55,695 bases of DNA, taken from Acidobacteriota bacterium. Lineage in GTDB: Bacteria; Acidobacteriota; CAIWXX01. The stretch is from NCBI GenBank assembly GCA_016191015.1, contig JACPPM010000215.1, forward strand, positions 1 through 55,695, given 5' to 3'. The notes below the pieces were generated by a model. That model worked only from the letters and a program-made list of their open reading frames with translations. It did not search any database and was not told the DNA's origin. The position numbers were made by a program, and so were the translations under genes. Positions 8,648-35,115 of the stretch are shown here, in pieces; the first letter of the stretch is position 1, and each line of letters begins with the position of its first letter.

Positions 8648-9146
8648 TCCTTGGGGCGTGTCCTAAGCTTGGATCCGTCGCGGCCGAGTGCCGGTCTCAG
8701 GCAAGCACAATCAGAGATTAGGAGGCGACCCGCACCGCCGGATCTCACAGCCGTCGGCTCCGGATGCGAGATATTCGTCCGAGCGACTGGACAAGAATAG
8801 ACGCCGTTCGCGACGAGGAGAGCAGCCTAGCGTGGCAACCAGACTTGGTTATCAGTGCGTCACAGGGACCTTGACTCGCGGGGGAGAGTTGGTTCTGAAG
8901 GTGCCACCCCCCAGGCGTTGAGGGCGCTGGCGTAGTCCTCCCGAAGTCCGGATCGAAGCTCGAATGCCAAACTGTTCGACTACCTGGCCTCCGAACCACG
9001 CCCAACGGACGCCGCGGCTTCCCTGGAGTGAGGCATCGAGCTCAACCCACTGCTCCGGCGGCAATACGGCCAGGACCTCGATCGCGCGCGCGTGCTCGCA
9101 GGTGCGAATTGAGTAAAGGGAGTCTCCACGACCGCCGCTCCGCCTT
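8648..9146. other. Intergenic region without a convincing gene
   Basis: No intact gene is seen. On the minus strand, between about 8960 and 9140, one frame reads EHARAIEVLAVLPPEQWVEL and onward and looks protein-like, but it has no start, is cut by element C on one side and ends without domain features. It may be the remnant of a lost gene. Confidence 0.3.
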
Positions 9147-9308
9147 GAATGAAAGGCTCGCTGCGATCGCAGACCATGTGGACTAAACGTAGATGTGGAC
9201 GTAGACGTTGACGTAGGCGATTGGTATCCATCGTCCACGTTTACGTCTACGATATCCGGGTGAGTGGCCGTGACAACATGTTGGTAAAGAATAGGCGTCC
9301 AGGCGCCC
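9147..9308 (+). repeat. Hairpin-array element C (ACGTAGACG-type)
   Basis: The left motif at 9147-9174 matches 188-215 of element B. Arms: 9186-9218 with tandem ACGTAGA/ACGTAGACG units, and 9231-9255 with the complementary CGTCCACG/ACGTCTACG units around a short loop. The end motif at 9270-9308 starts GACAACATGTTGGTAA and ends in GGCGCCCAA; its GAGCGCTAAGG part is diverged. Same ends as elements A, B and D but a different internal unit. Confidence 0.75.
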
Positions 9309-9614
9309 AACACACGGCACGCTCATCGGAGCGGATGCGCCGACGCCGCAGACGACGGTGCGGCCGCGCCCACGGCGTGGGCAGGGGCAAGAGAAGTCAC
9401 GAGGACGAACAACCGATTCATTTCCATCTCCAATTTCGAGTCGCGTACATCCTTCGAGAATTCAGATCGGCTGGAAGCGTGCCAGGCTCATCTCCGCCGC
9501 ATGGCCGGTGCGCCGACACTGCACCTACCGGATTCTTCATGTGCGGCTGGCTTGTGCGCGTTCCTGATCGATTGGATCACGGGCTCGATTATCCGGGAAT
9601 CGGAGGTGGAGCCT

Positions 9615-10240
9615 CCGATTGTCCTCGAGAAAGCCGGCCTTAGCTTCATCGTCGTGGCTCACGCCCGTGTGAAGCTCCTCGATGACGGCCAGGCTTTTGC
9701 GAAGGGACAGAAGCGCCTGTTCCCGCATGCCGAGCTGTCGCTGAATGACGCCCATCCCGTATGCCGCGGCCTATCGCACGCACTCATTGCCAGTCCGAAT
9801 GGAATCGTCGATCTCCAGATGCCCGCACTAGAGCGCCTTCTTCGCATCGCCGAGCAGCGCGAACATCCGGCCGAGATCGCCGAGCGTCAGGCTGAGATAT
9901 GGCAGACGGATCTCCTCGCCTATGTCTCTCGCCCTGATGTAGCAATGCAGAGCGGACTCGTAGTCGGCCAGATCGAGTTAGATTTCGCCGGTGATGCCGA
10001 TGTCATCAGCCAGGGCGCGTCGATCTCCGATCTCTTCCCAAATCGCTTCTGCCCGCTGGTGATAGGGGAGAGCCTGGGTGTTTTCACCATTGCGTCCATG
10101 CACAAGTCCGATACCGGCGAGCGCCCATGCGGGCCGGACACCGGTTGGTTCCTCCATCACGCGCAGGAGGGTCCGAGCCTGCAGCGCCTCGCCCCTGCAC
10201 CGGGCGCATGCCACCAGGTGCTCGCGGACTGCGCGACTAC
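9615..10240 (-). pseudogene. Decayed anti-sigma/TPR-CHAT fusion remnant
   Basis: Reading the minus strand from 10240, the zinc-finger segment VREHLVACARCRGEALQART and RVMEEPTGVRPA matches the anti-sigma factor at 16465-17376. At about 10125 it jumps in frame to WALAGIGLVHGRNGENTQAL, which matches the TPR part of the CHAT protein at 13500-16445. After about 9980 the frame shifts several times but still matches (MGVIQRQLGMREQALLSLRK to KAGFLED). Everything in between and the CHAT domain are lost. Clearly a deletion derivative of a second copy of the sigma/anti-sigma/CHAT module. Confidence 0.85.
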
Positions 10241-10324
10241 GACACTTGACGCGGATGGGACCCCCGTCGCAGCACCCACTAGTGATCCCCGTCACGGCAC
10301 TACGTATGGCATGTCCGGCTGCCT

Positions 10325-10350
10325 GGTACGTCCCCCTCGCCACTCTGTCT
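10325..10350 (+). promoter_or_regulatory. Putative ECF promoter GGTAC-N17-GTCT (site 1)
   Basis: GGTAC at 10325-10329 and GTCT at 10347-10350, exactly 17 bp apart and 59 bp before the ATG at 10409. The same pair with the same spacing lies before the genes at 11960, 18180 and 20085. The layout resembles ECF-sigma promoters (GGAAC-type minus 35, GTC-type minus 10). The likely reader is the sigma factor at 17373-17957. Confidence 0.7.
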
Positions 10351-10408
10351 CCCGAAACGAGTGACCGATGCCCGGTCCAGAGGGGAAGTCGCAGAAGGAG
10401 GAAAGAGA

Positions 10409-11152
10409 ATGCGAATCAACAATTCCAATCCATTTGCCAGAAACGACGGCGGCATGTCGGCCGGCGCCGTGGCCAAGAAAAGCGAGAATAACCAAGGGGC
10501 GACAGCGGGCACGAAGCCCACACGAGCCCTCTCTGCCACCACTCGCGATTCCTATGAAAGAAACAAACCCTCGGGAGTATTCGATCAACAGCCCAGCTTC
10601 TTCCGGCCTGCGGACGCTGGCTCCGCCGGAGCCTCCGAATCTCAACGCCGCCTGCAGGAGGCCGGGAAGGGAGGGTCGCTCCCTCGGATTCCCGAGCTCC
10701 CAGCCGACCTGGGTGCCCTGAAGGTGCCGATGAAAAGCAATGGCGTCGGGGACACCATCATGGAGTGGTTGGATAATGTCGCCAACGCCCAGGCAGTGGT
10801 CGAAGGCGTCACCGGGGATTCCGGTTCAAGCGATCCTGAGCACGCGCGCGGTCCGTGCATCCTCTGCGATGATCCTCACACACCGGAGTGGGCGAAGGCC
10901 ATCGTAAATCGTGCGGTGAACACGGTGACGGGTGGAGACATCACGGAGATTGTTGAGTCAGTAGCCGAGGCTGCCTTGGGGCAGCGGGGCGACGAGGAGG
11001 ATCGCAGAAAACATCGTGGACGATGCCGCAAGAGGCCCGCTAAGCATGGCACTGGGTGTGATCGGGTCGAATCCGTCCCCCTGGGCTCCCCAGGGAGGTG
11101 GCCCTCCGCCACTCCCCGGGCGTGGGGATGGCGTGGAGGACGGAGAGGATGA
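10409..11152 (+). CDS. Low-complexity protein, 5' part of a probably frameshifted gene
   Basis: The ATG at 10409 has AAGGAGGAAAGAG directly upstream. The protein starts MRINNSNPFARNDGG and has no signal peptide; a TRDSYERNKPSGVFDQQ segment at about residues 46-62 resembles TQDRYQQTPTPNAFEQL in the small protein at 12958. A region with two Cys pairs (GPCILCDDPHTPEWAK) and helices (VNRAVNTVTGGDITEIVES) follows. After about 10985 the frame becomes an Arg-rich tail, while frame 3 (see 11016-11855) continues sensibly (IAENIVDDAARGPLSMALGV). A one-base indel in the G-rich run near 10980-10995 would join them to about 482 residues. Function unknown; controlled by promoter site 1. Confidence 0.6.
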   Translation: MRINNSNPFARNDGGMSAGAVAKKSENNQGATAGTKPTRALSATTRDSYERNKPSGVFDQQPSFFRPADAGSAGASESQRRLQEAGKGGSLPRIPELPADLGALKVPMKSNGVGDTIMEWLDNVANAQAVVEGVTGDSGSSDPEHARGPCILCDDPHTPEWAKAIVNRAVNTVTGGDITEIVESVAEAALGQRGDEEDRRKHRGRCRKRPAKHGTGCDRVESVPLGSPGRWPSATPRAWGWRGGRRG

Positions 11153-11855
11153 CGGCCCGGAGCCTGGGGGCAGGCCCGACAGGCGAGGTCGCGGCAATCC
11201 CGTTCCCATCGGAGGAACGCTCCTCCCGCCAGAAGATCCGTCTGACGGCTACAGTGACGACGGTCCATGGCGTCCTCGAGGACCCTCTACTCCTCCTCAC
11301 GGCGGCGGGCCGGACGATGACTCGGACGACGGAGGAGACATCGAGCCGGAGGGCAATTCTAATGACGAGGGAGGCGGAGTGCATGGGGCACACCCGGACC
11401 GCCCTCCCAGTACCCCACTCGAACGGACCGGCGACACACCGGACGAACCCCACGACCCGCCCGAGACCCCCAGTGACAAACAAGACGCTTTGAGCTTGGT
11501 CGACGATCTGATCAAGGAGGGCGCCAGGGACAAGGAGCTGGGCCAGGATCCTTCGGTGGGACACGCCCGCCAAGGCAGCTCGAACGACCTTGGTGCACGT
11601 GCGCATCTGCCAGAGGCGCCGCGTGGTGTCACGCCACAACAAAAGGACTTTGTGGGGCCCGCCTTCGCGAAGACAAGCGGCGCTGACGACAAGGAGCGCC
11701 CGGCTGTGGGAGCGACGTCGGGCAGGCCATCGAGCAACGATCTGCACGGCGACGTCGGTGGGCCACATCAGCTGAGGTCGAGCGCAGGTCCCCAGGCTGG
11801 CGAGCTGGCACCTGACCCGCGGGTGGTGAGCCCTATCGATCCGGGCAAAGTGTGA
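11016..11855 (+). CDS. Pro/Gly/Asp-rich low-complexity protein, 3' part of a probably frameshifted gene
   Basis: This frame is open from before 11000 and has no ribosome site of its own, so it is best read as the continuation of the gene at 10409 after a frameshift. It is dominated by Pro, Gly, Asp and Glu (GGGPPPLPGRGDGVEDGEDD, HGGGPDDDSDDGGDIEPEGN), hydrophilic and probably disordered. No domain is recognised. The composition resembles the linker of large secreted or contact-dependent effectors, but there is no direct evidence for that. An alternative is that the two halves are translated separately. Confidence 0.5.
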   Translation: MDDAARGPLSMALGVIGSNPSPWAPQGGGPPPLPGRGDGVEDGEDDGPEPGGRPDRRGRGNPVPIGGTLLPPEDPSDGYSDDGPWRPRGPSTPPHGGGPDDDSDDGGDIEPEGNSNDEGGGVHGAHPDRPPSTPLERTGDTPDEPHDPPETPSDKQDALSLVDDLIKEGARDKELGQDPSVGHARQGSSNDLGARAHLPEAPRGVTPQQKDFVGPAFAKTSGADDKERPAVGATSGRPSSNDLHGDVGGPHQLRSSAGPQAGELAPDPRVVSPIDPGKV

Positions 11856-11875
11856 GCGCACTCACGGCTGCCCTT

Positions 11876-11901
11876 GGTACATCCTTGGATTCAGGATGTC
11901 T
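11876..11901 (+). promoter_or_regulatory. Putative ECF promoter GGTAC-N17-GTCT (site 2)
   Basis: GGTAC at 11876-11880 and GTCT at 11898-11901 with a 17 bp spacer, ending 59 bp before the ATG at 11960, the same distance as at site 1. The spacer sequence differs from the other sites, so the match is not simply part of a long duplication. Confidence 0.7.
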
Positions 11902-11959
11902 CTGTAAATAAGGTGCCGTTTCCCATCAGTGGGAACCGGTGGTGAGAGGAGAGGCTTTC

Positions 11960-12961
11960 ATGCGACACGGAAGACGATCGATCTACCTGGCTTGGTGCAC
12001 GACGCTCGCTTCGTTCTGTTCACCGCTTGGCGCATATGGGTCCCACCAATGGGCACACATGATCGGCTGGGGTAGTGTCGACTATCATCCCTCGTCCGTA
12101 GACGCGACCGCGGACGGAGGGTTCGTCATCGCTGGATACACGAGCTCATCGGGCCTCCCCACAGACGCATGGATAGCGAAGCTCAGTGCGGCAGGGACGA
12201 TCTCCTGGCAGAAGATCTTTGGCGGAGCCGATGGTGACTATGCGGAGGCGGTCAGACAAACGGCCGATGGTGGCTACATCCTCGGAGGCTACACGGAATC
12301 CTTCGGGAATGGGTCCGAAGGATGGGCGCTGAAACTTGATGCATCGGGCTCCGTCGTATGGCAGAAGACCTACGGAGGAACGGGGGACGACGTCATACTG
12401 TCCCTAGAGCAGACTGGCGACGGTGGTTACATCTTCGCCGGACGCACCACGAGCTTTGGAGCGGCGGACAGCAACGCCTGGACCGTGAAACTCTCTGCGA
12501 CCGGAACCGTGGAGTGGGAGAAGCGGAGAGCCACAAATCAGGCCATCGATCTCGCCTACTCCATCAAGGCGATCGCAGGCGGTGTGTACGCCATGGTGGG
12601 GATCGCCGAGGGGAATGCGGGCAGTTGGGATATCTGGTTCCTCCGGATCAATCCAACCGGCACGGCAACGGATCGACACATTATCGGCTCGAGCAAGAAT
12701 GATCTCGGAAAAGCCATCGATGCCGCGGGCGACGGCGGTTGGTTCGTGTCGGGGTACTTCGATAGTGGCGCCGGCACCGGGTATGACGGCTTACTCCTGA
12801 AACTCAACTCCAGCCGATCTCACAGGCGCTGCCTTGAAGCGGTGTGGGGATCACATCCAGGAGGACAAGGGCGAACATCAGGTCCGCAGGATCTCGCAGA
12901 GAAGACCGAGTCCACAACGACACCGAGTATCACTGATCGAGTTGAGGAGGATTCGCGATGA
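11960..12961 (+). CDS. Secreted delta-60-type beta-propeller protein, C-terminally replaced
   Basis: Signal peptide (MRHGRRSIYLAWCTTLASFC up to AYG) and then about six blades with the pattern QTADGGYILGGYTESFG, WALKLDASGSVVWQKTYGG, closely related to the protein at 20085-22046. After about position 12815 (LLLKLNSS) the blade pattern stops and an unrelated Ser/Arg-rich tail follows to the stop at 12961. The missing PKD part survives in degraded form at 13370-13490, so the gene is a truncated paralogue of 20085. The stop overlaps the next ATG (ATGA). Start chosen by GAGGAGAGG upstream and promoter site 2. Confidence 0.8.
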   Translation: MRHGRRSIYLAWCTTLASFCSPLGAYGSHQWAHMIGWGSVDYHPSSVDATADGGFVIAGYTSSSGLPTDAWIAKLSAAGTISWQKIFGGADGDYAEAVRQTADGGYILGGYTESFGNGSEGWALKLDASGSVVWQKTYGGTGDDVILSLEQTGDGGYIFAGRTTSFGAADSNAWTVKLSATGTVEWEKRRATNQAIDLAYSIKAIAGGVYAMVGIAEGNAGSWDIWFLRINPTGTATDRHIIGSSKNDLGKAIDAAGDGGWFVSGYFDSGAGTGYDGLLLKLNSSRSHRRCLEAVWGSHPGGQGRTSGPQDLAEKTESTTTPSITDRVEEDSR

Positions 12962-13338
12962 AGATCAGCAACCCAGGTTCATTTCCCTCCGCCGCAGGCA
13001 GTGTCACGGCCAGCGGGGAAGCCGGAAGCTCGAGGCACGTCCAACAGCCGGCGTCACGCAAGAAACCGGCAGCCGCCGCCGGCAACACACAGGATCGATA
13101 TCAACAGACGCCGACACCAAATGCGTTCGAGCAGCTGGTCAGACCCAGCGATCTCAGCCGGCAGGCAGAGCGCAAACGAGCTGGACCGACGCGCGGCGAA
13201 TCCGGCGATGGGGAGCCCGAGGCCATGACCCTCAACTCGCTGACCTCGAAGCGCTCGTCAGCGGTCCAGCTGGCGTCGAAGACCCTGAGCGACACGGCCA
13301 GGTCCAGCGGGGCAATCATCGGGAATATTGGCAAATAG
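12958..13338 (+). CDS. Small hydrophilic protein, MKISN family of unknown function
   Basis: A 126-residue protein without signal peptide, overlapping the previous stop by ATGA and preceded by GAGGAGG. It begins MKISNPGSFPSAAGS and contains TQDRYQQTPTPNAFEQL; both features recall the N-terminus of the protein at 10409 (MRINNSNPF; TRDSYERNKPSGVFDQQ). The C-terminus is a predicted amphipathic helix (SAVQLASKTLSDTARSSGAI). It sits exactly between the truncated propeller and the relic of its lost C-terminus, so it was inserted or brought in by deletion. Function unknown. Confidence 0.6.
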   Translation: MKISNPGSFPSAAGSVTASGEAGSSRHVQQPASRKKPAAAAGNTQDRYQQTPTPNAFEQLVRPSDLSRQAERKRAGPTRGESGDGEPEAMTLNSLTSKRSSAVQLASKTLSDTARSSGAIIGNIGK

Positions 13339-13369
13339 GTCCTCCGACAGATGCTACATGGTGACCGTC

Positions 13370-13490
13370 TCGAGCCATCCCCGCGCCGCTCCCGGGGATT
13401 ATCAATGGGCAGTCGATGTTACAGAAGCCGGCGCCAGCCCATGCGCGCGATCAGGTTCCATCACGATCTCGGCGAAAGCCTCCGGCCGGC
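13370..13490 (+). pseudogene. Relic of a PKD domain from a propeller gene
   Basis: One frame reads RAAPGDYQWAVDVTEAGASP and CARSGSITISAKA, matching YAAPGTYPWTLNVTAPGANA and CSQSGSITISSTA in the protein at 20085-22046. No start and no adjoining domain remain. It is the severed 3' part of the propeller gene at 11960. Confidence 0.8.
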
Positions 13491-13499
13491 AGCGCCCGC

Positions 13500-16445
13500 T
13501 TACAGCGCCTCCCCGATCAGAACGAATGGCGCCCAGTAGATGGGATGCTCAGCGATCACTTTGCCCGACGGTGTTCGGAGCTTCTTAGCGCGCAACTGTG
13601 AGATCATGTCCATCTGAGCCGCGCGAAGGGCTGCAGCCTTGCCGCCGCCCGGGGTCTTCAGAACCGAATAGAACTTCTCCATCTCGGCCGTCGCTACGAG
13701 GTCGGCCACACGCCACAGGCTGACGATGACGCTGGGTGTTCCCGCATAGAGGAAGGCGCGGCTCAGACCGATCACACCGTCACCGTTCACCTTGCCCAGG
13801 CCGGTGTTGCATGCGGAAAGAACCACGAGATCGGCGTGCAGGTCCAGGTTGAACACCTCTCTGGCGGTGAGCCGACCGTCCTCGGGCGGTGCCGGCGCCA
13901 GAGCGAGGAAGCTCTCCAGCGGGAGGTCGTCGCGGATGACGCAGTGCGTCGCGAGATGAATCATCGTCTGCTGCCCCGCCAGCTCCCTCACCTGTTGCTC
14001 TCCGGCCTGGGTCCCCGTCAGCTCGATCACGTTCGTGGACGGGAACAGGCGGCCGATCGCCCGGGCTTCGGCCTCGGCCCCCGGGAGCGGCGGAAACGGC
14101 TCGTCGGCCCACGGCAGGCGAGGCATCGCGGGATTCCCGACTACAAACAGGTGGGGGTCCTCCCGGTGGATGACTCGAGCCTTGCCGGCGGCCGTGTACC
14201 TGAGCACGCTCATCGCCGGGCTGTAGTGGATCGTGTGTTGTTCGATGAGATAGCGGCCGTTCTTGTCGAGAAGGGCGGCAAACGAGACTAGAAACAGAGG
14301 CCCGTGAGGGATGACGGTGACCAGTGCGTGAGGGTTGTTCGGGAGAAAAGCCTCGATCGGCTGGATCAGGAGCTGGTGCAACCGCCTGAGGACGGCCCGC
14401 GGGTCCTGCCCAGCGCCGGCGCCACGGCTCGGCCTTCCCGCCCTATCCGCACCCTTCGGCGCTTCAGCCACCTCCCAGGCCCCGACATCGGCCTGCATGA
14501 CACCGCGCATCTCCCGGACGAGATCATCGAGCTCGCGTCGGGTTATCGCGGAGGCAGCGACATGCAGATCGCCGCCGGGCCTTGAAACCCAGATGAAGAG
14601 CCTGTGTTCAGTGACGAAATACTCGACGACAGTGATTTCGCGGTGGCGTGCGTCATCCAGAAGCTGAGTGATCGGCTGCGGCTGCGCCTCAACGAGGCTC
14701 GCCAGCTCCACGCCCTGTGTCCTCAACTTCCCGATTTCCGCCCTGACGATCTCCTGTCCCCTCATGGCAATCTCGCCATCTTCGGCGGCGGTCGATGCGG
14801 CGAGCTGTGTCTGGGCGGAGGGCCGCTGACTCGCCACGGCGGTCATCGCGTCCTGCGGTGACACGTGGAGCTCCCTGGCCCGGAGGAGATCGAGAAAGGC
14901 GCGAGCGCGCGCACGCTCAGCCAGGTCCAGCGCTTCCTGCGCCCGCCCGAGCTCAATCAGCAGATCGATAGTCTCCGCAAACACAATCTGCTTGTCCTCG
15001 AGAAAGCCGGCCTTGGCTTCATCGTCAGGGCTGACACCTGTGCGAAGCTTCTCGATGACGGCCAGGCTTTCGCGAAGGGACAGAAGCGCCTGTTCCCGCA
15101 TGCCGAGTTGTCGCTGAATGACGCCCATCCTGTAGTCCGCGACCCATCGCATGCCCTCATTACCGGTCCGGATGGAATCCTCGATCGCCTGCTGCCCGTA
15201 TGAGAGCGCCTTCTTCGCGTCGCCGAGCAGCGCGTACACTCGGCCGAGATTGCCGAGCGTCAGGCTGAGATATGGTAGGCGGATCTCCTCGCCCATGTCT
15301 CTGGCCCTGATGTAGCACCGCAAGGCAGAAGCGTAGTCGCCGAGGTCGAGGTAGATGTCGCCGGTAATGCGGATGTCATCCGTCAGCGCTCGTCGATCCC
15401 CGATCTCTTCCCAAATCGCTTCTGCCCGCTTGTGATAGGGGAGAGCCTGCGTGTTTTCACCATTGCGTCTGTGCACAAGTCCGATTCCGGCGAGTGCCCA
15501 TGCCTCTTCGCGCCGGTCGCCCGCCTGCTGCCTGGACAGCAAGTACTGCTGGTAGCACTCGACCGCCTTCCCGGGCAGACCCTGCAGTCCGTAGACCAGG
15601 CCCAGGTGACGGAGGGCCCTTGCGCGCCCGGACAAGTCCTTGCCGAGCTCCGCCAGCTGCAGCGCTTGACGGAAGTGGGCAAGAGCTTCCTGGTAGGCCC
15701 CCTGGAAGCAGTATGAGAGACCGACGTGGATGCAGGAGACCGCTTGTCCACGCAGATCCCCCAGCGCCTCGTAGTTCCGGAGCGCCCGCAGATAATAGTC
15801 GATGGCTTGCGTATAATGGAATTTGTCGCGGTAGAGGCTGCCCAAGCTCTCGAGACTCCGGCTCTGCAGGGTGAGATCTCCGGCCGCCTCGGCAACCTGC
15901 AGCGAGCGCGCGTAGTGCTCGAGAGCCTGGTCATAAAGACCCTGCTTGAAGTAGACCTGCCCGATGCGGCGGCGTGTCACGGCTTCGCCCTGCAAATCAC
16001 CGGTCTCGGTTTCAAGGGCGATGGCTTGCAGGTGATAACGGAGAGCCTCTCCGTAGTCCGCACGACCCCAGTAGCAGTGGCCGATCCCGGTGAGGATCAT
16101 TGCCTCGAGTGCAGCGTCGCCGGCCTCCCGCGCCAGCTCGAGCGCGCGGCGGTGCTGGGCGCCGCCCATCGCGAGGTCCCCACGGTCGTTCGACAGGATG
16201 CCGTCATAGAGGAGACACTTGGCTTCGATCCGCGGGTCCTTCAGCTCCCGCCCGACTCTCCGCGCTTCATCCAAATCGGATCGAATGCGTACAAAATCGC
16301 GCTCTTCGAAGGTCCTTTCGACTTCTGTCAGCAGTGCTTCCGCCCGTTTCCTTGATTGCTCTGAATCGGACGCCACAGCAGAATTCACGCATGCCGAGAT
16401 CCAGAACGCCCAGATCACTCGGGTTCCGGACCGTCGCCAGCCCAC
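13500..16445 (-). CDS. Exported TPR-CHAT caspase-like protease
   Basis: A 981-residue protein from the GTG at 16445, preceded by a strong GGAGGAGG and 19 bp after the anti-sigma stop. A signal peptide (residues 1-25, TRVIWAFWISACVNSAVA) predicts export. Residues about 60-480 are TPR pairs (EALRYHLQAIALETETGDLQ, ALAHFRQALQLAELGKDL). The C-terminal third is a CHAT domain with the catalytic pair His834 (IHLATH) and Cys879 (LSACNTG) and the terminal HPIYWAPFVLIGEAL. CHAT domains are clan CD cysteine peptidases. Last gene of the sigma/anti-sigma/CHAT operon, it could process the periplasmic tail of the anti-sigma factor; that is inference. The frame is open to 16673 but overlaps the upstream gene there. 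Confidence 0.9.
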   Translation of the reverse strand: MGWRRSGTRVIWAFWISACVNSAVASDSEQSRKRAEALLTEVERTFEERDFVRIRSDLDEARRVGRELKDPRIEAKCLLYDGILSNDRGDLAMGGAQHRRALELAREAGDAALEAMILTGIGHCYWGRADYGEALRYHLQAIALETETGDLQGEAVTRRRIGQVYFKQGLYDQALEHYARSLQVAEAAGDLTLQSRSLESLGSLYRDKFHYTQAIDYYLRALRNYEALGDLRGQAVSCIHVGLSYCFQGAYQEALAHFRQALQLAELGKDLSGRARALRHLGLVYGLQGLPGKAVECYQQYLLSRQQAGDRREEAWALAGIGLVHRRNGENTQALPYHKRAEAIWEEIGDRRALTDDIRITGDIYLDLGDYASALRCYIRARDMGEEIRLPYLSLTLGNLGRVYALLGDAKKALSYGQQAIEDSIRTGNEGMRWVADYRMGVIQRQLGMREQALLSLRESLAVIEKLRTGVSPDDEAKAGFLEDKQIVFAETIDLLIELGRAQEALDLAERARARAFLDLLRARELHVSPQDAMTAVASQRPSAQTQLAASTAAEDGEIAMRGQEIVRAEIGKLRTQGVELASLVEAQPQPITQLLDDARHREITVVEYFVTEHRLFIWVSRPGGDLHVAASAITRRELDDLVREMRGVMQADVGAWEVAEAPKGADRAGRPSRGAGAGQDPRAVLRRLHQLLIQPIEAFLPNNPHALVTVIPHGPLFLVSFAALLDKNGRYLIEQHTIHYSPAMSVLRYTAAGKARVIHREDPHLFVVGNPAMPRLPWADEPFPPLPGAEAEARAIGRLFPSTNVIELTGTQAGEQQVRELAGQQTMIHLATHCVIRDDLPLESFLALAPAPPEDGRLTAREVFNLDLHADLVVLSACNTGLGKVNGDGVIGLSRAFLYAGTPSVIVSLWRVADLVATAEMEKFYSVLKTPGGGKAAALRAAQMDMISQLRAKKLRTPSGKVIAEHPIYWAPFVLIGEAL

Positions 16446-16464
16446 GCGACCTCCTCCGTGCTCC

Positions 16465-17376
16465 TCAGCGGGACGCCGGCATTCTCGCAAGCACTTCCTG
16501 TCGGAGCTGCGCAGCCTCTGCGCGACGCGCGCCAGGCGCGGCGGACAGTGCATCCAGCTGTTCGAGTGCCTCGGTGGGCTGACCGTGCTTGAGGAGTGCG
16601 ATGGCGAGATACCAGCGAGCCCCTGCAACCAATGCACCCTCGCCGGTCTTGATTGCGGCTCGAAGCGGCGCAACGGCCTCGGGGGTCCTGCCGAGCATCA
16701 GGAGCGACACGCCGCGATAGAAGTGCGCTTCCGCTTCCCCAGGGTTCCTCGCCAGGAGCTCGGCCAGCCTCCGTTCGGCCTCGGCGAAATCGTCCCGCTC
16801 GTAAGGCTCCATTGCCAACGGCAGCGTGCTCTGCGCCTCGGGCGCCTGCTTGCCGTCTCGGTAGGACATCTCGTGAGGGCCTGCAACCGGCGGGGAGTAT
16901 TCAGCCTTTGCGACCACGAGATCCCGCCATGGATTCGCAGCGGGCGCGCCCGATGCGACCGCCGCCGCCGCCGCCGGTGGCTTCGAGGAACGCGCTTGCT
17001 GTACCGGCTGGATCTCGACTCGATGCGTTCGCCAAAAGAGAAACGCGATGCCGATTCCGAAAACGACCATCGCAGCGGCAGCCAGCAGGAAGGGTGTTCT
17101 CTGTACTCGAACCCATGAGATCTTCGGGAATCGCGCGGGCCGGACACCGCTTGGTTCGCTCATCACTCGCAGGAACGCCCGCGCCTGCGTCGCCTCGCCC
17201 CTGCACCGGGCGCATGCCACCAGATGTTCTCGGACGTCGGCAATCTCCGCCTCGTCGAGCCGGTCGGAATAGAAACCGAGCAGTTGATCGCCCATCAGAC
17301 AGCCAGCGGACGAGGGTTGGGTGTGCCTCGCGATGGCCTTCCGAACCCAACTCAGCATCGATTTATCGTCGATCAT
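16465..17376 (-). CDS. Membrane anti-sigma factor, zinc finger plus periplasmic TPR tail
   Basis: A 303-residue protein. The ZAS-type zinc-binding motif has Cys26, then His51-x3-Cys55-x2-Cys58 (REHLVACARC). One membrane helix follows at about 89-112 (PFLLAAAAMVVFGIGIAFLF). The outer part has a Pro/Ala-rich linker, then TPR-like helices from about 195 (AEAHFYRGVSLLMLGRTPEA, ARWYLAIALLKHGQPTEALE). The start ATG overlaps the sigma stop (ATGA), so the two are translationally coupled. It should hold the sigma factor at 17373-17957 inactive in the cytoplasm and sense or bind partners outside through its TPRs. A degraded second copy of its zinc finger lies near 10200. Confidence 0.9.
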   Translation of the reverse strand: MIDDKSMLSWVRKAIARHTQPSSAGCLMGDQLLGFYSDRLDEAEIADVREHLVACARCRGEATQARAFLRVMSEPSGVRPARFPKISWVRVQRTPFLLAAAAMVVFGIGIAFLFWRTHRVEIQPVQQARSSKPPAAAAAVASGAPAANPWRDLVVAKAEYSPPVAGPHEMSYRDGKQAPEAQSTLPLAMEPYERDDFAEAERRLAELLARNPGEAEAHFYRGVSLLMLGRTPEAVAPLRAAIKTGEGALVAGARWYLAIALLKHGQPTEALEQLDALSAAPGARRAEAAQLRQEVLARMPASR

Positions 17377-17957
17377 TGGCTCTCCTCAGGCTCGGTCTTG
17401 AGCACTCGCCGCAAATTCGCCTTCGCCAGCACCAAGTGGTTGCGCACCGTATTGAGACTCAGCCGCAACGTCTCGGCGATCTCCTCGTACGAGAGCTCGT
17501 CCCGCACGCGCAGCACGAGGCACTGCCGTTGCTGTGGAGGGAGTTGCTCGATCGCGGTCCAGACAGATTCGATCACCTGATCCTCGATCGTTACCTGGTC
17601 GGGCGGGTCCTCAGGGGTGTTCGGATCGCCCGCCAGATCGAGCGGGACCGTGTGCCCCGTTCCTTTCAATCTCCCCGACGCCGTGATCATGGCATTCCGG
17701 GCGATCGCAAAGAGCCACCCCATGAAACTCTCTTCGCACTCGAGGCTTCTCACACCTTGAAAGACATTGGCCAGCGTAGTCTGTACCAGGTCTTCGGCGT
17801 CGCTGCTGCCAAACCCGTGAAACTGGAAGTACTTCAGCAGGCGGCTCCGGAGATGCTCGTCGACAACCCGGAAACTCTCCTCAACCTCGACTCCCGCCCT
17901 CAGATGACGCACAGCTTGGGAGAGCTCCTCGTCCGGGCACAGTCGCGTCCGCTCCAC
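17373..17957 (-). CDS. ECF-type RNA polymerase sigma factor
   Basis: A 194-residue protein with region 2 (LLKYFQFHGFGSSDAEDLVQ, TTLANVFQ, ESFMGWLFAIARNAM) and region 4 (IEQLPPQQRQCLVLRVRDEL, SYEEIAETLRLSLNTVRNHL). Starts with GTG at 17957; the Shine-Dalgarno is weak. First gene of the sigma/anti-sigma/CHAT operon. Four GGTAC-N17-GTCT sites upstream of neighbouring secreted-protein genes are its most likely targets. No matching site is seen before the sigma gene itself; a GGAAC at 18002-18006 on the minus strand lacks a GTCT 17 bp on. Confidence 0.92.
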   Translation of the reverse strand: MERTRLCPDEELSQAVRHLRAGVEVEESFRVVDEHLRSRLLKYFQFHGFGSSDAEDLVQTTLANVFQGVRSLECEESFMGWLFAIARNAMITASGRLKGTGHTVPLDLAGDPNTPEDPPDQVTIEDQVIESVWTAIEQLPPQQRQCLVLRVRDELSYEEIAETLRLSLNTVRNHLVLAKANLRRVLKTEPEESQ

Positions 17958-18100
17958 CGCGGACCGCTCGCGACGTGGAAATGCCGATCGCCACTTGAAC
18001 GTCGGTTCCTCCCTTGAACTTCTGGGATGCCCAGTTGTTGGACAACTTATAGAACGGAATCAGGAGGAATTCAAACGGACGGGCGGCGATACCAGTCACT

Positions 18101-18126
18101 GGTACTTTCATCTCCCCGCCCTGTCT
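18101..18126 (+). promoter_or_regulatory. Putative ECF promoter GGTAC-N17-GTCT (site 3)
   Basis: GGTAC at 18101-18105 and GTCT at 18123-18126, spacer 17 bp, 53 bp before the GTG at 18180. The whole leader from here to the start codon is nearly identical (about 90 percent over 75 bp) to 20008-20084. It lies in the divergent region between the sigma operon and the beta-helix gene. Confidence 0.75.
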
Positions 18127-18179
18127 TGGTGTGTAGATCCCGGTGGAACGTCAGATGAACGGGTCAGAGGAGGTCGAAC

Positions 18180-19961
18180 GTGAGCAACATCCGGATCAGG
18201 CAGCGGTCCTCGCGCAAAACATCGCTCGTCGCGCTGCTGATGACGGTCGGCTCCGTCTTGCCTGCGCCGGCCCAAAGCGCGCCCGTGCTCTATTTCTCGG
18301 ATGTCACGAGCGGACCGAGGAGCGGCAACTCGGACAGTTCGGCGGGGCTTCCGCCCGGGCAAAACGGTGCCATCGTGACCGTCTGGGGCACCGGAATCGG
18401 CTCCAGCCGCGGCACCAGCAAGATCTATTGCAACGGTGCCGAGGCCCCTTCTTATTACTACTGGGGCAACGCCACAAAGCCGGCGAATCTCTACGCCTCT
18501 CATCGCATGCAGATGATCTCCTTCCAGGTGAGCGGCAGCGCACAGAATGGAAGGGGTGTCATCTATGCCGTCGTGAATGGCCAACAATCGAATACGCTCC
18601 CTTTCACAATCCGATCTGGATCGATGTACTTCGTCAAGACCTCGGGCAGCGACGCGACCGGGGATGGCAGTTGGACTCTTCCTTGGAGAACGATCGGGAA
18701 GGCAGTGGCGAGCCTGGCGAACGGCGACATCGCATACGTGGGAAACGGGGTGAGCCAGACGACTGCAGGCGAGTACGACGCGGCAGTGAATCTGGGTTCC
18801 AGCGGCACCGCCGACAACCCCAAGGCGTTGATTGTGTATCCAGGTGCCACCGCGAAGGTTGGCAACCCCAAAATCTATCGTGCCTTCCACAGCTGGGGGA
18901 CGGGCACCGGTGGGTACGTGCAACACTGGGTACTCTCGAAGTTCTCCATCACTACCAAGGTGGTGGGCGTGTTCGCGAACACAGGTTTCAGGGTCGTGGG
19001 CAACCGTCTTACCGGCGCCAAGACGAACGAAGGCATGGAGGGGACCATCTACGCCATCGGCAGCGACCTCTATCTGCTCGGCAACGAGCTAGGCAACATC
19101 GGGACCGCTCAGTCCAACGATTCGAAGCTCCAGCACGTCATCTACGTGACGGGTGTCAGGCAGGACGAAATGCCGCGTGCTCCGACGGAACGGACCCGGG
19201 AGATCGCTTGGAACTACCTCCACGACAACTACGTCAATCGGGGAATCAACATCTACAGCGAACAAGACGGCTCGGCATATATCCAGCAACATCGAATCCA
19301 TGACAACGTGATCGTCAATCAGCGTGGCGACGGAATACTCGTTGGCTACTACGTCACCGCCGAGAACTGGATCTATAACAATCTGATCGTCCGGGCAGGC
19401 CTCGGCCCCGAGCTCGACAACCCCTCGACACATGCCGGCATCCAAATCGACACCGGCCACGAGAGCGTTCCGAGAACGAAGACGATCATTCATTGCTACA
19501 ACAACACGCTGTACGGCTGCGGCTTCTCCGGCGCCGTCTATGCCGGTGAGAACGGCGCTCTGTTCATTACGTCCTCCGCCACATCCCGAAGCACACTGCG
19601 CTTCGCCAACAACATCGTGGTCTCGACCGGTGAACCTTACCTCGCCGGCGACAGCGGCATACCCACATCCGGTGACTACCGGGGCTGCTGGTTCGGAGAT
19701 GGCGCGGCACCGCGGTGGGACGAAGGGGCGATCAACGCCGACCCACAGTTCGTGAGCGCGGCGTCGAGAGACTTCCAGCTCCGATCGACAAGCCCGTGCC
19801 GCGATGCAGGGAAGGATGTTTCGAAGACGGTCGCCCGGGACCTGCTCGGTGTGCCGCGCCCGCAGGGGAGCGCCTTCGACCTGGGGGCGTACGAGCTCCG
19901 CCCGGCTCAGGGCTCCGGCTCTCACGCGCGACGGAAGTCGCCGCGGAACCGGGAGAATTGA
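18180..19961 (+). CDS. Secreted IPT-like domain plus right-handed beta-helix protein
   Basis: A 593-residue protein from a GTG with GAGGAGG upstream. Signal peptide: TSLVALLMTVGSVLPAPAQS. Residues about 35-145 resemble an IPT/TIG-type Ig fold (GAIVTVWGTGIGSSRGTSKI, FQVSGSAQNGRGVIYAVVNG). From about 150 a beta-helix of the pectate-lyase superfamily type starts with MYFVKTSGSDATGDGSW and PWRTIGKAVASL, continues with HDNYVNRGINIYSEQDGSAY and YNNLIVRAG, and ends with DFQLRSTSPCRDAGKDVS and FDLGAYE. Likely a surface polysaccharide-active or adhesive protein; catalytic residues not assigned. Promoter site 3 puts it under the ECF sigma factor encoded divergently. Confidence 0.85.
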   Translation: MSNIRIRQRSSRKTSLVALLMTVGSVLPAPAQSAPVLYFSDVTSGPRSGNSDSSAGLPPGQNGAIVTVWGTGIGSSRGTSKIYCNGAEAPSYYYWGNATKPANLYASHRMQMISFQVSGSAQNGRGVIYAVVNGQQSNTLPFTIRSGSMYFVKTSGSDATGDGSWTLPWRTIGKAVASLANGDIAYVGNGVSQTTAGEYDAAVNLGSSGTADNPKALIVYPGATAKVGNPKIYRAFHSWGTGTGGYVQHWVLSKFSITTKVVGVFANTGFRVVGNRLTGAKTNEGMEGTIYAIGSDLYLLGNELGNIGTAQSNDSKLQHVIYVTGVRQDEMPRAPTERTREIAWNYLHDNYVNRGINIYSEQDGSAYIQQHRIHDNVIVNQRGDGILVGYYVTAENWIYNNLIVRAGLGPELDNPSTHAGIQIDTGHESVPRTKTIIHCYNNTLYGCGFSGAVYAGENGALFITSSATSRSTLRFANNIVVSTGEPYLAGDSGIPTSGDYRGCWFGDGAAPRWDEGAINADPQFVSAASRDFQLRSTSPCRDAGKDVSKTVARDLLGVPRPQGSAFDLGAYELRPAQGSGSHARRKSPRNREN

Positions 19962-20007
19962 CATGACCAGATCGAGAGCAGATCGGATATCACGCATGGC
20001 ACTCCCT

Positions 20008-20033
20008 GGTACTTTCATCTCCCTGCCCTGTCT
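20008..20033 (+). promoter_or_regulatory. Putative ECF promoter GGTAC-N17-GTCT (site 4)
   Basis: GGTAC at 20008-20012 and GTCT at 20030-20033 with 17 bp between, 51 bp before the ATG at 20085. It lies after the stop of the beta-helix gene, so the propeller gene has its own promoter although it follows in the same direction. Confidence 0.75.
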
Positions 20034-20084
20034 TGGTTTGTAGATCCCGGTGGAGCGCCGGATGGACCGGCCAGAGGAGGCAAG

Positions 20085-22046
20085 ATGATGTTGTTCAGGA
20101 CGAGAACTTCAGGTCGTTTGTTCCTGGTTACGATGTTCGCGGGGGCAGCCTTCCCGGCTGTCTCGCAGGCCTCGCACCAGTGGGCGCGAGTGATCGGCGG
20201 GAGCGGGAATGAAGCTCCGTACTCGGTCCAGCAGACGAGTGACGGTGGCTACATCCTGGCGGGGTACACATCGGGCAGCTTCGGAGGTGACCAAAACGTG
20301 TGGCTGGTGAAGCTGGATTCGTTAGGGAACATCTCCTGGCAGCGGACTTTCGCAGGTGGAAGCGGCTCGGAATCGGGAGGTCTGGTCCGGCAGACGGCCG
20401 ATGGTGGATATTACCTGGCATGCTACACGCCGGCTCTTGGCAACGGCGACGAAGCCTGGATACTGAGGCTGGACTCCGTCGGGAGTGTTTCCTGGCAGAA
20501 AACCTACGGGGGGACAAGCACGGAATCGATCTTCTCGTTGGAGCCAACGAGCGATGGGGGGTGTGTGTTCGGAGGTTACACGAGGAGCTTCGGTTCGGTT
20601 GACAACAATGCGTGGGCGGCCAAGCTCTCCTCAAGCGGCACTGTCGGCTGGGCAAAGAGAAGATACATCGGATCAGGACAACAACCCAGCGGATACCAAC
20701 TGCAGACAAGGACGATTGCACCAGACGGGAGTGGGGGGTACGCGACACTGGTCGAGGTTCAGTCTCCCGGGGGTGGAGGGTCCGTGCTGTTTCAGCCTCT
20801 CGATTCGAACGGGGTCATCAGCGGCACCAAGCATTTGATCAGTCTGGGCACTTCCGCGCGCCCTCGGGCAATGGACAGATCCGGCGACGGTGGTTGGTTT
20901 ATCTCAGGGATTGTGTCGGTTTCCGGCAATGGCGATGACGGGCTCCTGATGAAACTGAATTCAACCGGCAGCCCAGTGTGGCAGAAACACCTTGGGGGAC
21001 AGGGCACCAGCTACTTCCTTGACGGAAGATCGACGCCGGACGGCGGGTACGTGGCCGTCGGAGAAACAGAGAGCCCCAGTGACGGGAGCTCGGACGTATG
21101 GGTCGTGAAATTCAATTCTTCGGGCGGTGTCGAGTGGCAGAAAACATACGGCGGCGCGGGCACTGACGTGGGACGCGCGATTGGCCGAACAAGCGACGGC
21201 GGCTACATCGTCGTTGGCGACAGCGGATCTTTTGGCGGTGCCGAGGAAGTGCTCGTTCTCCGGCTCTCGCCGACCGGAGAGATCGACACCTCGTGCGGGG
21301 GATTGGTTGAGACAGCTGCTCAGCCCTCAGCTGACCTGAGCGCCAGTGATAGCACGAGCTTCACCAGTTCCGTCTCCGACACCGCCGTCACGGTCGTCAC
21401 CCCCACGTACGTCATGAACAACACGAATGGTGCCGACACGACTCTGTGCACCTCGTCCTGCCAGGTGAGCTGTTCGGCGACCGTGCCGGCTTCGGGCGTC
21501 GTAGGGATCGCGGCGAATTTCTCGAGCTCTGCTACCCTTGTGGATTGCGGCGGCGCTGTCGCCTATTCATGGGCGTTCGGCGACGGTGGCACGTCAAGCG
21601 AACAGAACCCCGCCTACGCCTACGCCGCTCCCGGAACATATCCGTGGACCCTCAATGTCACGGCGCCCGGTGCCAACGCGTGCTCGCAATCGGGCTCAAT
21701 CACGATCTCATCAACAGCCGTGCCGGATCTGACGGGTGCGTGGACGAGTGTGAAAAAGAAGAAGAGCAAGGTAAACGCGACCTTCTCCTGCCAGAACATC
21801 GACCTCGGGGAGGCCGCGAGCTTCACGGTCAAGCTCTACTTTTCCAGGAAGTCCACGCTCAGCAAGAAGTCAAAGCTCATCAAGACTCAGATCGTCTCAT
21901 CGCTCGCGGCCGGAGGCGTCCTGCCGATCGCCTTCAAGGCGACCCCCCCGAACAAGCACAAGTACCTGATCGCGGTGGTGGACCCGGATGGAGCGGTCGC
22001 TGAGGCGAACGAGGGCAACAACACGATTGTCCGGGCAATGCCGTGA
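20085..22046 (+). CDS. Secreted delta-60-type propeller with PKD and CARDB-like domains
   Basis: A 653-residue protein with signal peptide (RLFLVTMFAGAAFPAVSQAS). About seven to eight blades of about 50 residues follow the pattern QTSDGGYILAGYTSGSFGGD, WLVKLDSLGNISWQRTFAGG. Residues about 465-545 are a PKD domain (YSWAFGDGGTSSEQNPAYAY). The C-terminus is Lys-rich (SVKKKKSKVNATFSC) and ends in a CARDB-like Ig domain (YLIAVVDPDGAVAEANEGNN). The start has AGAGGAGG upstream; two adjacent ATGs are possible. Intact relative of the truncated gene at 11960. Likely a large cell-surface or released protein under the ECF sigma factor. Confidence 0.88.
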   Translation: MMLFRTRTSGRLFLVTMFAGAAFPAVSQASHQWARVIGGSGNEAPYSVQQTSDGGYILAGYTSGSFGGDQNVWLVKLDSLGNISWQRTFAGGSGSESGGLVRQTADGGYYLACYTPALGNGDEAWILRLDSVGSVSWQKTYGGTSTESIFSLEPTSDGGCVFGGYTRSFGSVDNNAWAAKLSSSGTVGWAKRRYIGSGQQPSGYQLQTRTIAPDGSGGYATLVEVQSPGGGGSVLFQPLDSNGVISGTKHLISLGTSARPRAMDRSGDGGWFISGIVSVSGNGDDGLLMKLNSTGSPVWQKHLGGQGTSYFLDGRSTPDGGYVAVGETESPSDGSSDVWVVKFNSSGGVEWQKTYGGAGTDVGRAIGRTSDGGYIVVGDSGSFGGAEEVLVLRLSPTGEIDTSCGGLVETAAQPSADLSASDSTSFTSSVSDTAVTVVTPTYVMNNTNGADTTLCTSSCQVSCSATVPASGVVGIAANFSSSATLVDCGGAVAYSWAFGDGGTSSEQNPAYAYAAPGTYPWTLNVTAPGANACSQSGSITISSTAVPDLTGAWTSVKKKKSKVNATFSCQNIDLGEAASFTVKLYFSRKSTLSKKSKLIKTQIVSSLAAGGVLPIAFKATPPNKHKYLIAVVDPDGAVAEANEGNNTIVRAMP

Positions 22047-22098: not shown

Positions 22099-22455
22099 CA
22101 ATGCAGATCGCGCAGATTTCTGCGCAGATTCCGCGGATGACCGGAGGCCTCACCAGTTCTTCACCACTCAGCCACCCAGTACACGGTCCGTCCGGATCCA
22201 TCTGCCCAATCTTTGGATTGCACAGGACTTTGACGTGCCCTGTGGCCAAGGCTACGGCAAAGTCCCGGAAACCGCAGATTTCACAGATTGACTCGCAGAT
22301 GTCGCCGATTGCTTCGCGCCGACCCGAAAGTGAGGAGCAAGTTGCTCGTCGGTTGAATGCTGGAAGAATCTGCGTAATCTGCGCGGAAATCTGCGCCATC
22401 TGTGGTTTCCAACGGAACGGACACGCCCGAGTCGGCTCCTCGACTTTGCCGCCGT
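22099..22455 (-). repeat. Hairpin-array element G (CGCAGATT-type), inverted copy of 553-759
   Basis: The stretch 22246-22455 matches 553-759 in inverted orientation, including arms (22270-22312 and 22367-22405), loop and outer flanks. A further short CGCAGATT array lies outside it at 22099-22136. Open frames across it result from the lack of stops. The interval 22047-22520 holds no gene. Confidence 0.8.
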
Positions 22456-22506
22456 CCTGGGCCTGAGGCAGACTTGACGCGCGACCGCCGTTGAGGCACT
22501 ATATCA

Positions 22507-34201: not shown

Positions 34202-35115
34202 TGACCCGTATCCTCGGGTGTGGCCAGGGGCGTGACGAAGTCCATCGGTTTCATCCACGCACCGAAGCGGCGCCATTCCGTCACAAGGTCCACGTGAACC
34301 TGCAGGTACTTCACCTCCTTCCTGACCCGCAGCATCGCCGCACACTGATGAATTCCCTCGATGCCGAATTGCTCGGAGTCCTGCCACGTCCAGCCGAATT
34401 CCGTATCCCCGCTCTGATAGGCGATCTGGTTCGGCGTGTCCTTGGTGGGAAAGAACCCCCTGAAGGCCGCCGTAACGCCCGACACGACACCCTCGATAGG
34501 TCCCATGTAGCGCGTGAACAGGCTGACACTGTCCATGGCCTTCGTCACATCCGAGACGCCCGTCCGATAGACCGATTCGCTCGGATAGATCGCGAGCACG
34601 ACGACCGCCTGTTTCTCCACGTCGACGACAGACTTGTGTGGCACCTCCACGGCCTGCGCGGTCGGAGCGGCCGGCACAATCGCAAGCGGGCGTTTCGATG
34701 CGTCGAGTCCGACGATGCGGACATGCGCGTTCATCTTCTGCAACTCGGTCCGCCTGCCCACGTCCGGGCTGCTGTCGCCCGAGCCCAGCTCCTCCTCGGT
34801 GATAATCCTCGCCGCCGCGCTGATCGTGAGGGCCAAGGATGGGAAGGCATACTGCTCGACGATCGATCGTTCGAGCATGCTCGCCGACGGACCGCTCTGA
34901 ATCGATCCGCTCGGTCCCTGGTACACCATCACGTAGGTCGTTGTGAACGCAGTGGGGGGCTTTGATGCGCCTCTCACCCGAATCGGCTCTTCGTCGGGGT
35001 TCAGGAAGTAGGGTTTCGTTTGCCCTTCGGTTATCTCAACGGCTTGAGCCGAGCCGAGGCGGGGACCGAGGGCACAGGCCACGACGACACACACGACGCA
35101 CGCTCGAATATTCAC
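34198..35115 (-). CDS. Exported protein of unknown function, partner of TPR-CHAT protease
   Basis: A 305-residue protein from GTG 35115 (GAGAGGCTCC upstream) with signal peptide RACVVCVVVACALGPRLGSA. The mature part has mixed alpha/beta composition, for example TEGQTKPYFLNPDEEPIRVR, TAFTTTYVMVYQGPSGSIQS, NAHVRIVGLDASKRPLAIVP and VEKQAVVVLAIYPSESVYRT. No family is recognised. Its stop overlaps the GTG of the CHAT gene, a strong sign of a functional pair. The upstream frame to 35166 is open but less likely. Confidence 0.75.
   Translation of the reverse strand: MNIRACVVCVVVACALGPRLGSAQAVEITEGQTKPYFLNPDEEPIRVRGASKPPTAFTTTYVMVYQGPSGSIQSGPSASMLERSIVEQYAFPSLALTISAAARIITEEELGSGDSSPDVGRRTELQKMNAHVRIVGLDASKRPLAIVPAAPTAQAVEVPHKSVVDVEKQAVVVLAIYPSESVYRTGVSDVTKAMDSVSLFTRYMGPIEGVVSGVTAAFRGFFPTKDTPNQIAYQSGDTEFGWTWQDSEQFGIEGIHQCAAMLRVRKEVKYLQVHVDLVTEWRRFGAWMKPMDFVTPLATPEDTGQ

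Follow-up and report, generated by a model that had tools for sequence, protein, structure and literature searches.

Linkage of exported TPR-CHAT proteins to ECF sigma factors and membrane anti-sigma factors: a putative route to sigma factor release

Many bacteria encode numerous CHAT proteins, few of them with a known partner or substrate. In the window (the whole 55,695-nucleotide stretch of DNA analysed here), a TPR-CHAT protein is encoded in one operon with an ECF sigma factor and a membrane anti-sigma factor, and across many related bacteria such exported TPR-CHAT proteins appear to be the outside half of the anti-sigma restraint. Gene linkage, matched compartments, an intact catalytic dyad and fused counterparts are the parts directly established; cleavage of the anti-sigma factor by the CHAT protein to free the sigma factor is putative, and plausible. 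That CHAT genes are repeatedly tied to those of ECF anti-sigma factors gives CHAT proteins a concrete partner, hints at what the CHAT domain of the anti-sigma factor DdvA may do, and defines a pairing that is directly testable with two proteins. If the proposal is true, Craspase signalling would be one branch of a wider CHAT control over sigma factors.

The operon and its three products

The features of the operon are as follows.

17373..17957, minus strand: ECF sigma factor, 194 aa, GTG start (Pfam: Sigma70_r4_2, E 1.5e-17; Sigma70_r2, E 1.2e-8)
16465..17376, minus strand: membrane anti-sigma factor, 303 aa, with zinc-finger domain, one membrane helix and outside TPR domain (Pfam, alignments, AF2)
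17203..17226, minus strand: zinc-binding motif H51-x3-C55-x2-C58 (HLVACARC), invariant among aligned relatives in two alignments
17026..17091, minus strand: single membrane helix, residues 96-117 (hydropathy peak 2.64, AF2 helix)
16888..16935, minus strand: conserved outside juxtamembrane peptide NPWRDLVVAKAEYSPP, residues 148-163, in the otherwise variable linker between membrane helix and TPRs
16483..16824, minus strand: outside TPR domain of the anti-sigma factor, residues 185-298 (TPR_16, E 8.8e-11; pLDDT 86-98)
13500..16445, minus strand: exported TPR-CHAT protein, 981 aa, GTG start at 16445 (ORF, Pfam, AF2)
16371..16445, minus strand: predicted signal peptide, residues 1-25, AVA cleavage site (by eye)
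15042..16295, minus strand: TPR solenoid, helices within residues 51-468 (TPR_12 x5 in Pfam, AF2 model)
13509..14396, minus strand: CHAT (caspase/separase-type) domain, residues 684-979 (PF12770, E 1.5e-69, 235-238 bits)
13944..13946, minus strand: catalytic His834 codon, invariant in alignment
13809..13811, minus strand: catalytic Cys879 codon, invariant in alignment

The sigma and anti-sigma genes share an ATGA overlap (17373-17376), and 19 bp (16446-16464) separate the anti-sigma gene from the CHAT gene; this coupling had been pointed out in a sequence-only reading of the window, and its positions proved exact on rechecking. Because the likely flanking genes on both sides lie on the opposite strand, the operon is taken to comprise three genes. 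The same reading had described the products as an ECF sigma factor, a membrane anti-sigma factor with its TPRs outside the membrane and a TPR-CHAT protein with an export signal and an intact His/Cys pair, and Pfam, hydropathy, AlphaFold2 (AF2) and inspection of the leader by eye agree on all three. A decayed partial duplicate of the operon lies at 9619-10229 on the minus strand of the window: 512 bp with 88% identity to 14992-15503 (CHAT gene) are fused directly to 101 bp with 86% identity to 17135-17235 (anti-sigma gene), the middle having been lost.

The sigma factor has both regions 2 and 4, and its TIGR02937 match exceeds the cut-off. The overlapping gene encodes a protein with an H-x3-C-x2-C domain; zf-HC2 did not reach the threshold of E 0.001 in this protein (Pfam), and in a profile search of the PDB its profile matched the anti-sigma domains of DdvA, 3hug_B and RsiW. 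It is a zinc-finger anti-sigma protein and a putative inhibitor of the ECF sigma factor, its fit to the membrane anti-sigma class being one of anatomy. Hydropathy and the AF2 model (mean pLDDT 78, 86-98 in the TPR part) place the TPR helices of residues 185-298 after the membrane helix at 96-117, that is, outside the membrane. Since several CHAT-linked anti-sigma factors carry no TPR, this domain is not a general docking element; a TPR-bearing anti-sigma factor with no CHAT gene nearby also exists (L050). The core of the juxtamembrane peptide, KAEY/KASY-x-P, is kept in three relatives (L042, L046, L049) and nearly so in a fourth (L044, EAEYVA), and residues 151-160 are modelled as ordered and non-helical (pLDDT 92): NPWRDLVVAKAEYSPP is a candidate region for CHAT docking or contact, or for cleavage. 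A scan of genome contigs with the window's anti-sigma factor found no relatives, a plasmid search with it gave no match, and Foldseek with its model returned generic TPR matches only.

The CHAT protein begins with MGWRRSGTRVIWAFWISACVNSAVA-SDS, by eye a plausible type I signal peptide; a lipobox-like ISAC at residues 16-19 would also allow a lipoprotein-type leader, and the leader of a paralogue with 52% identity (in L042) is similar. Neither His834 nor Cys879 varies across 12 aligned operon CHAT proteins. The His/Cys dyad is intact in 208 of 212 CHAT ORFs overall and in 33/33 CHAT proteins with an ECF gene upstream on the same strand (tandem and fused cases), and for this reason the protein is predicted to be a catalytic CHAT protease (PF12770) that probably uses its active site. 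The AF2 model (pLDDT 81.8) structurally resembles Csx29 (Z 32, the top VIA-align match) and separase (Z 27), and as both of these cut specific partners, the likeness counts in favour of a cleavage model. The window holds a second TPR-CHAT gene (31238-34387, minus strand, E 4e-68) without an adjacent ECF gene.

Linkage, fusion and compartment in related genomes

The linkage of ECF, anti-sigma and CHAT genes is real and far above chance. A search of genomes for conserved ECF/anti-sigma/TPR-CHAT neighbourhoods, as proposed in the sequence-only reading, found that the linkage recurs. Of the 12 CHAT genes in the window's genome, eight have an ECF gene within 2.5 kb, in every case with an anti-sigma-like gene beside the ECF gene; four are tandem like the window (C164, C109, C242, C287), one is CHAT-first, two are convergent and one is divergent. 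Given 62 sigma-r4 matches in 6.43 Mb, the chance probability of 8/12 is about 3e-8, a figure less independent than it looks because some of the operons are paralogues. In other genomes of the phylum, sampled from the PF12770 list blind to neighbours, an ECF gene lies within 2.5 kb of 34 of 82 CHAT genes, and a recognised anti-sigma gene or fusion accompanies 24 of those 34; the other 48 CHAT genes have no ECF neighbour, and exported CHAT proteins of this kind are common in the phylum. An ECF gene was nearby for 9/95 CHAT genes in a broad, cyanobacteria-dominated sample, so the tie is enriched by lineage and is not general to CHAT proteins. Because the arrangements include tandem (SIG-ASF-CHAT), reversed (CHAT-SIG-ASF), convergent, divergent and fused forms, the linkage exceeds mere co-transcription. 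The same order of zinc-finger/TM/TPR anti-sigma and CHAT occurs in a Gemmatimonadota genome (L093), and a Terriglobia genome (L138) provides a further example of the linkage.

Some units depart from the plan of the window. One (L175, 1233-7092) has an ECF gene, a membrane anti-sigma factor, a C11/clostripain-like peptidase (by eye) and then a TPR-CHAT gene, and thus holds two caspase-fold candidates. In another (L173, 921-7041), the place between the ECF and CHAT genes that an anti-sigma gene would take is occupied by a gene for a membrane Ser/Thr kinase (PF00069, E 1e-46), and L187 resembles L173 in protein size and in the position of the membrane helix. Two genomes of one family (G050 and G063) have at least 21 CHAT genes each (66 candidates at first look).

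The closest known system is that of DdvA, the cognate anti-sigma factor of DdvS in Myxococcus xanthus, for which the inducing signal is unknown (PMC4374960). The comparison draws on PDB titles (8rot, 8rw5, 8rlz), sequence matches and PMC4374960. DdvA (8rot_B) is a single chain of 991 residues, a transmembrane anti-sigma factor by its PDB title, and it is homologous to the products of the window at both ends: the anti-sigma profile has the DdvA domain 8rlz_A as its top PDB match (E 5.4e-5) and matches residues 7-50 of 8rot_B (E 5.7e-4), the zinc-finger N terminus, and the CHAT profile matches residues 825-977 (E 9.4e-8), the CHAT C terminus. The CHAT domain of DdvA retains His and Cys in a pairwise alignment, and Foldseek with the CHAT model ranked DdvA first; DdvA is not among the 50 VIA-align matches listed for that model. 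Both systems thus combine an ECF sigma factor, a membrane anti-sigma factor with a zinc-finger domain, and a CHAT domain with His and Cys. Whereas DdvA has all of its parts on one chain, the window has them on two genes 19 bp apart, an anti-sigma factor with its own short TPR domain and a separate exported TPR-CHAT protein, and by homology the operon is best read as a split DdvA. Fusions also occur in the window's phylum, directly behind an ECF gene (L205, L233), on chains whose N terminus is anti-sigma-like and non-zinc and which also carry a membrane helix, TPRs and a CHAT domain. When two proteins encoded by neighbouring genes in some genomes are fused in others, they are classically taken to be direct partners. 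Because DdvA fuses restraint and protease-like domain, it supports the pairing of anti-sigma factor and CHAT protein.

The two partners also agree in compartment. In a set of 26 ECF-anti-sigma-CHAT units, chosen to leave aside those with kinases or unclear middle genes and with the label of L138 assigned by eye, 21 (the two fusions included) have a membrane anti-sigma factor and an exported CHAT protein, and the remaining five have a soluble anti-sigma factor and a CHAT protein without a signal peptide. Agreement in 26/26 units gives a Fisher P of 1.5e-5, and yet the correlation amounts to about one observation, because the soluble cases form one clade in both the sigma and the CHAT trees and trace to one switch; co-variation of compartments was rejected as independent statistical proof on this ground. 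By the trees, the change would be a single evolutionary switch made jointly by both partners. In L064 the CHAT protein groups with that of L041 and the sigma factor groups with a different anti-sigma type, a conflict between trees which suggests that such units arose more than once. Four soluble anti-sigma-like proteins with non-exported CHAT partners (L071, L072, L074, L177) share a related C-terminal domain; in L072, the one scanned, Pfam gave no name beyond zf-HC2.

A possible mechanism, its rivals and known systems

A self-contained envelope signalling module, in which a predicted site-1 cut of the anti-sigma factor by the CHAT protein frees the sigma factor, has in our estimate an even chance of being right. 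The cytoplasmic zinc-finger domain of the anti-sigma factor would tether the sigma factor to the inner membrane, and the outside TPR domain and the conserved juxtamembrane peptide may together form the surface on which the exported TPR-CHAT protein docks. The TPR solenoid of the latter would sense an envelope signal, the His/Cys site would turn active, and the CHAT protein would then cut the anti-sigma factor in its outside part, presumably as the site-1 step. General intramembrane and cytoplasmic proteases would complete the degradation and free the sigma factor; M50 proteases could perform the step after the site-1 cut, and the window's genome has several M50 candidates, the family being near-universal. 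More broadly, exported caspase/separase-like CHAT proteins may be dedicated site-1 proteases of ECF anti-sigma factors, making up a CRISPR-independent signalling class whose split, fused and soluble forms are spread over several phyla; this wider claim is tentative, at somewhat less than even chances.

The CHAT protein may instead be a sensor subunit, non-proteolytic or processing only itself, whose TPR solenoid and CHAT domain bind an outside ligand and, by touching the anti-sigma factor, relay the signal to it. As the CHAT domain of DdvA is covalently part of the anti-sigma chain itself, a sensor role fits DdvA as well as a protease does, and the unknown inducing signal of DdvA (PMC4374960) and the large TPR solenoid of the window's CHAT protein also speak for it; a purely structural role, however, would be expected to lose the dyad sometimes, and none of the 33 tandem and fused cases has lost it, so we regard a sensor as unlikely without being far-fetched. 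The place of the CHAT gene downstream in the sigma operon, together with the exported CHAT proteins that have no ECF neighbour, would suit a CHAT protein that is itself part of the sigma factor's output: a protease exported to act on other envelope targets or on foreign ones, its gene lying beside the switch that controls it. Such a role is quite unlikely, since the convergent, divergent and CHAT-first layouts and the fusions to anti-sigma factors are unexpected for a mere regulon member.

It is very improbable that the operon is related to Craspase signalling of type III-E CRISPR, in which Csx29 cuts Csx30 to free CASP-sigma. In Craspase, too, the genes of a TPR-CHAT protease, a sigma inhibitor and an ECF sigma factor are tied together (PMC10028731), and this shared logic and the rank of Csx29 as top VIA-align match favour such a relation; CHAT-domain homology, however, is common to very many CHAT proteins. 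Craspase (Cas7-11/Csx29/Csx30/CASP-sigma) is RNA-guided, has a cytoplasmic TPR-CHAT protein and uses Csx30 as its inhibitor, whereas the CHAT protein of the window is exported (by a signal peptide judged by eye), the inhibitor is a membrane zinc-finger protein, and no direct-repeat family of the CRISPR kind was found around the operon (window 9000-22000). The sequence-only reading had noted that no CRISPR component was present, and this stands for an array adjoining the operon. By the features tested, the likeness to Craspase is one of logic and not of membership.

The envelope module with CHAT cleavage resembles other known systems as well. Like those of RseA/DegS/RseP and of RsiW/RsiV, it has a membrane anti-sigma factor that reaches outside and could there receive a site-1 cut; the site-1 proteases of the RseA, RsiW and RsiV systems are serine proteases or signal peptidase, whereas the window encodes a CHAT protein in the operon itself. 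CalpL/CalpT/CalpS follow the same logic of protease, sigma inhibitor and ECF sigma factor; CalpL is a cytoplasmic SAVED-Lon protease switched by cyclic oligoadenylate and differs in this from the CHAT protein of the window. In the ECF54 group, CHAT genes are conserved in the ECF neighbourhood and an anti-sigma factor is described as absent (PMC8999054), whereas here an anti-sigma gene lies between the ECF and CHAT genes. The sequence-only reading had proposed an independent route, CHAT-controlled release of a sigma factor by proteolysis of the anti-sigma factor: the pairing behind it is supported by linkage, matched compartments, the dyad and the DdvA fusion, and the route is less new than was thought, because DdvA already joins an anti-sigma factor to a CHAT domain and ECF54 has CHAT genes near ECF genes (PMC8999054).

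Other repeats in the window

An 81-bp element occurs twice on the plus strand, at 18093-18173 and 20000-20080, with 88% identity; the copies directly precede two adjacent plus-strand genes and end near the ribosome-binding site. The element was considered as a regulon promoter and rejected: with just two copies in the genome, side by side, it is more likely a local duplication. Long direct repeats lie at 45593-46337/52253-52997 (94%) and 50163-50628/54282-54747 (92%), and an inverted repeat of about 213 bp (91% identity) joins 547-759 and 22246-22459, 21 kb apart.
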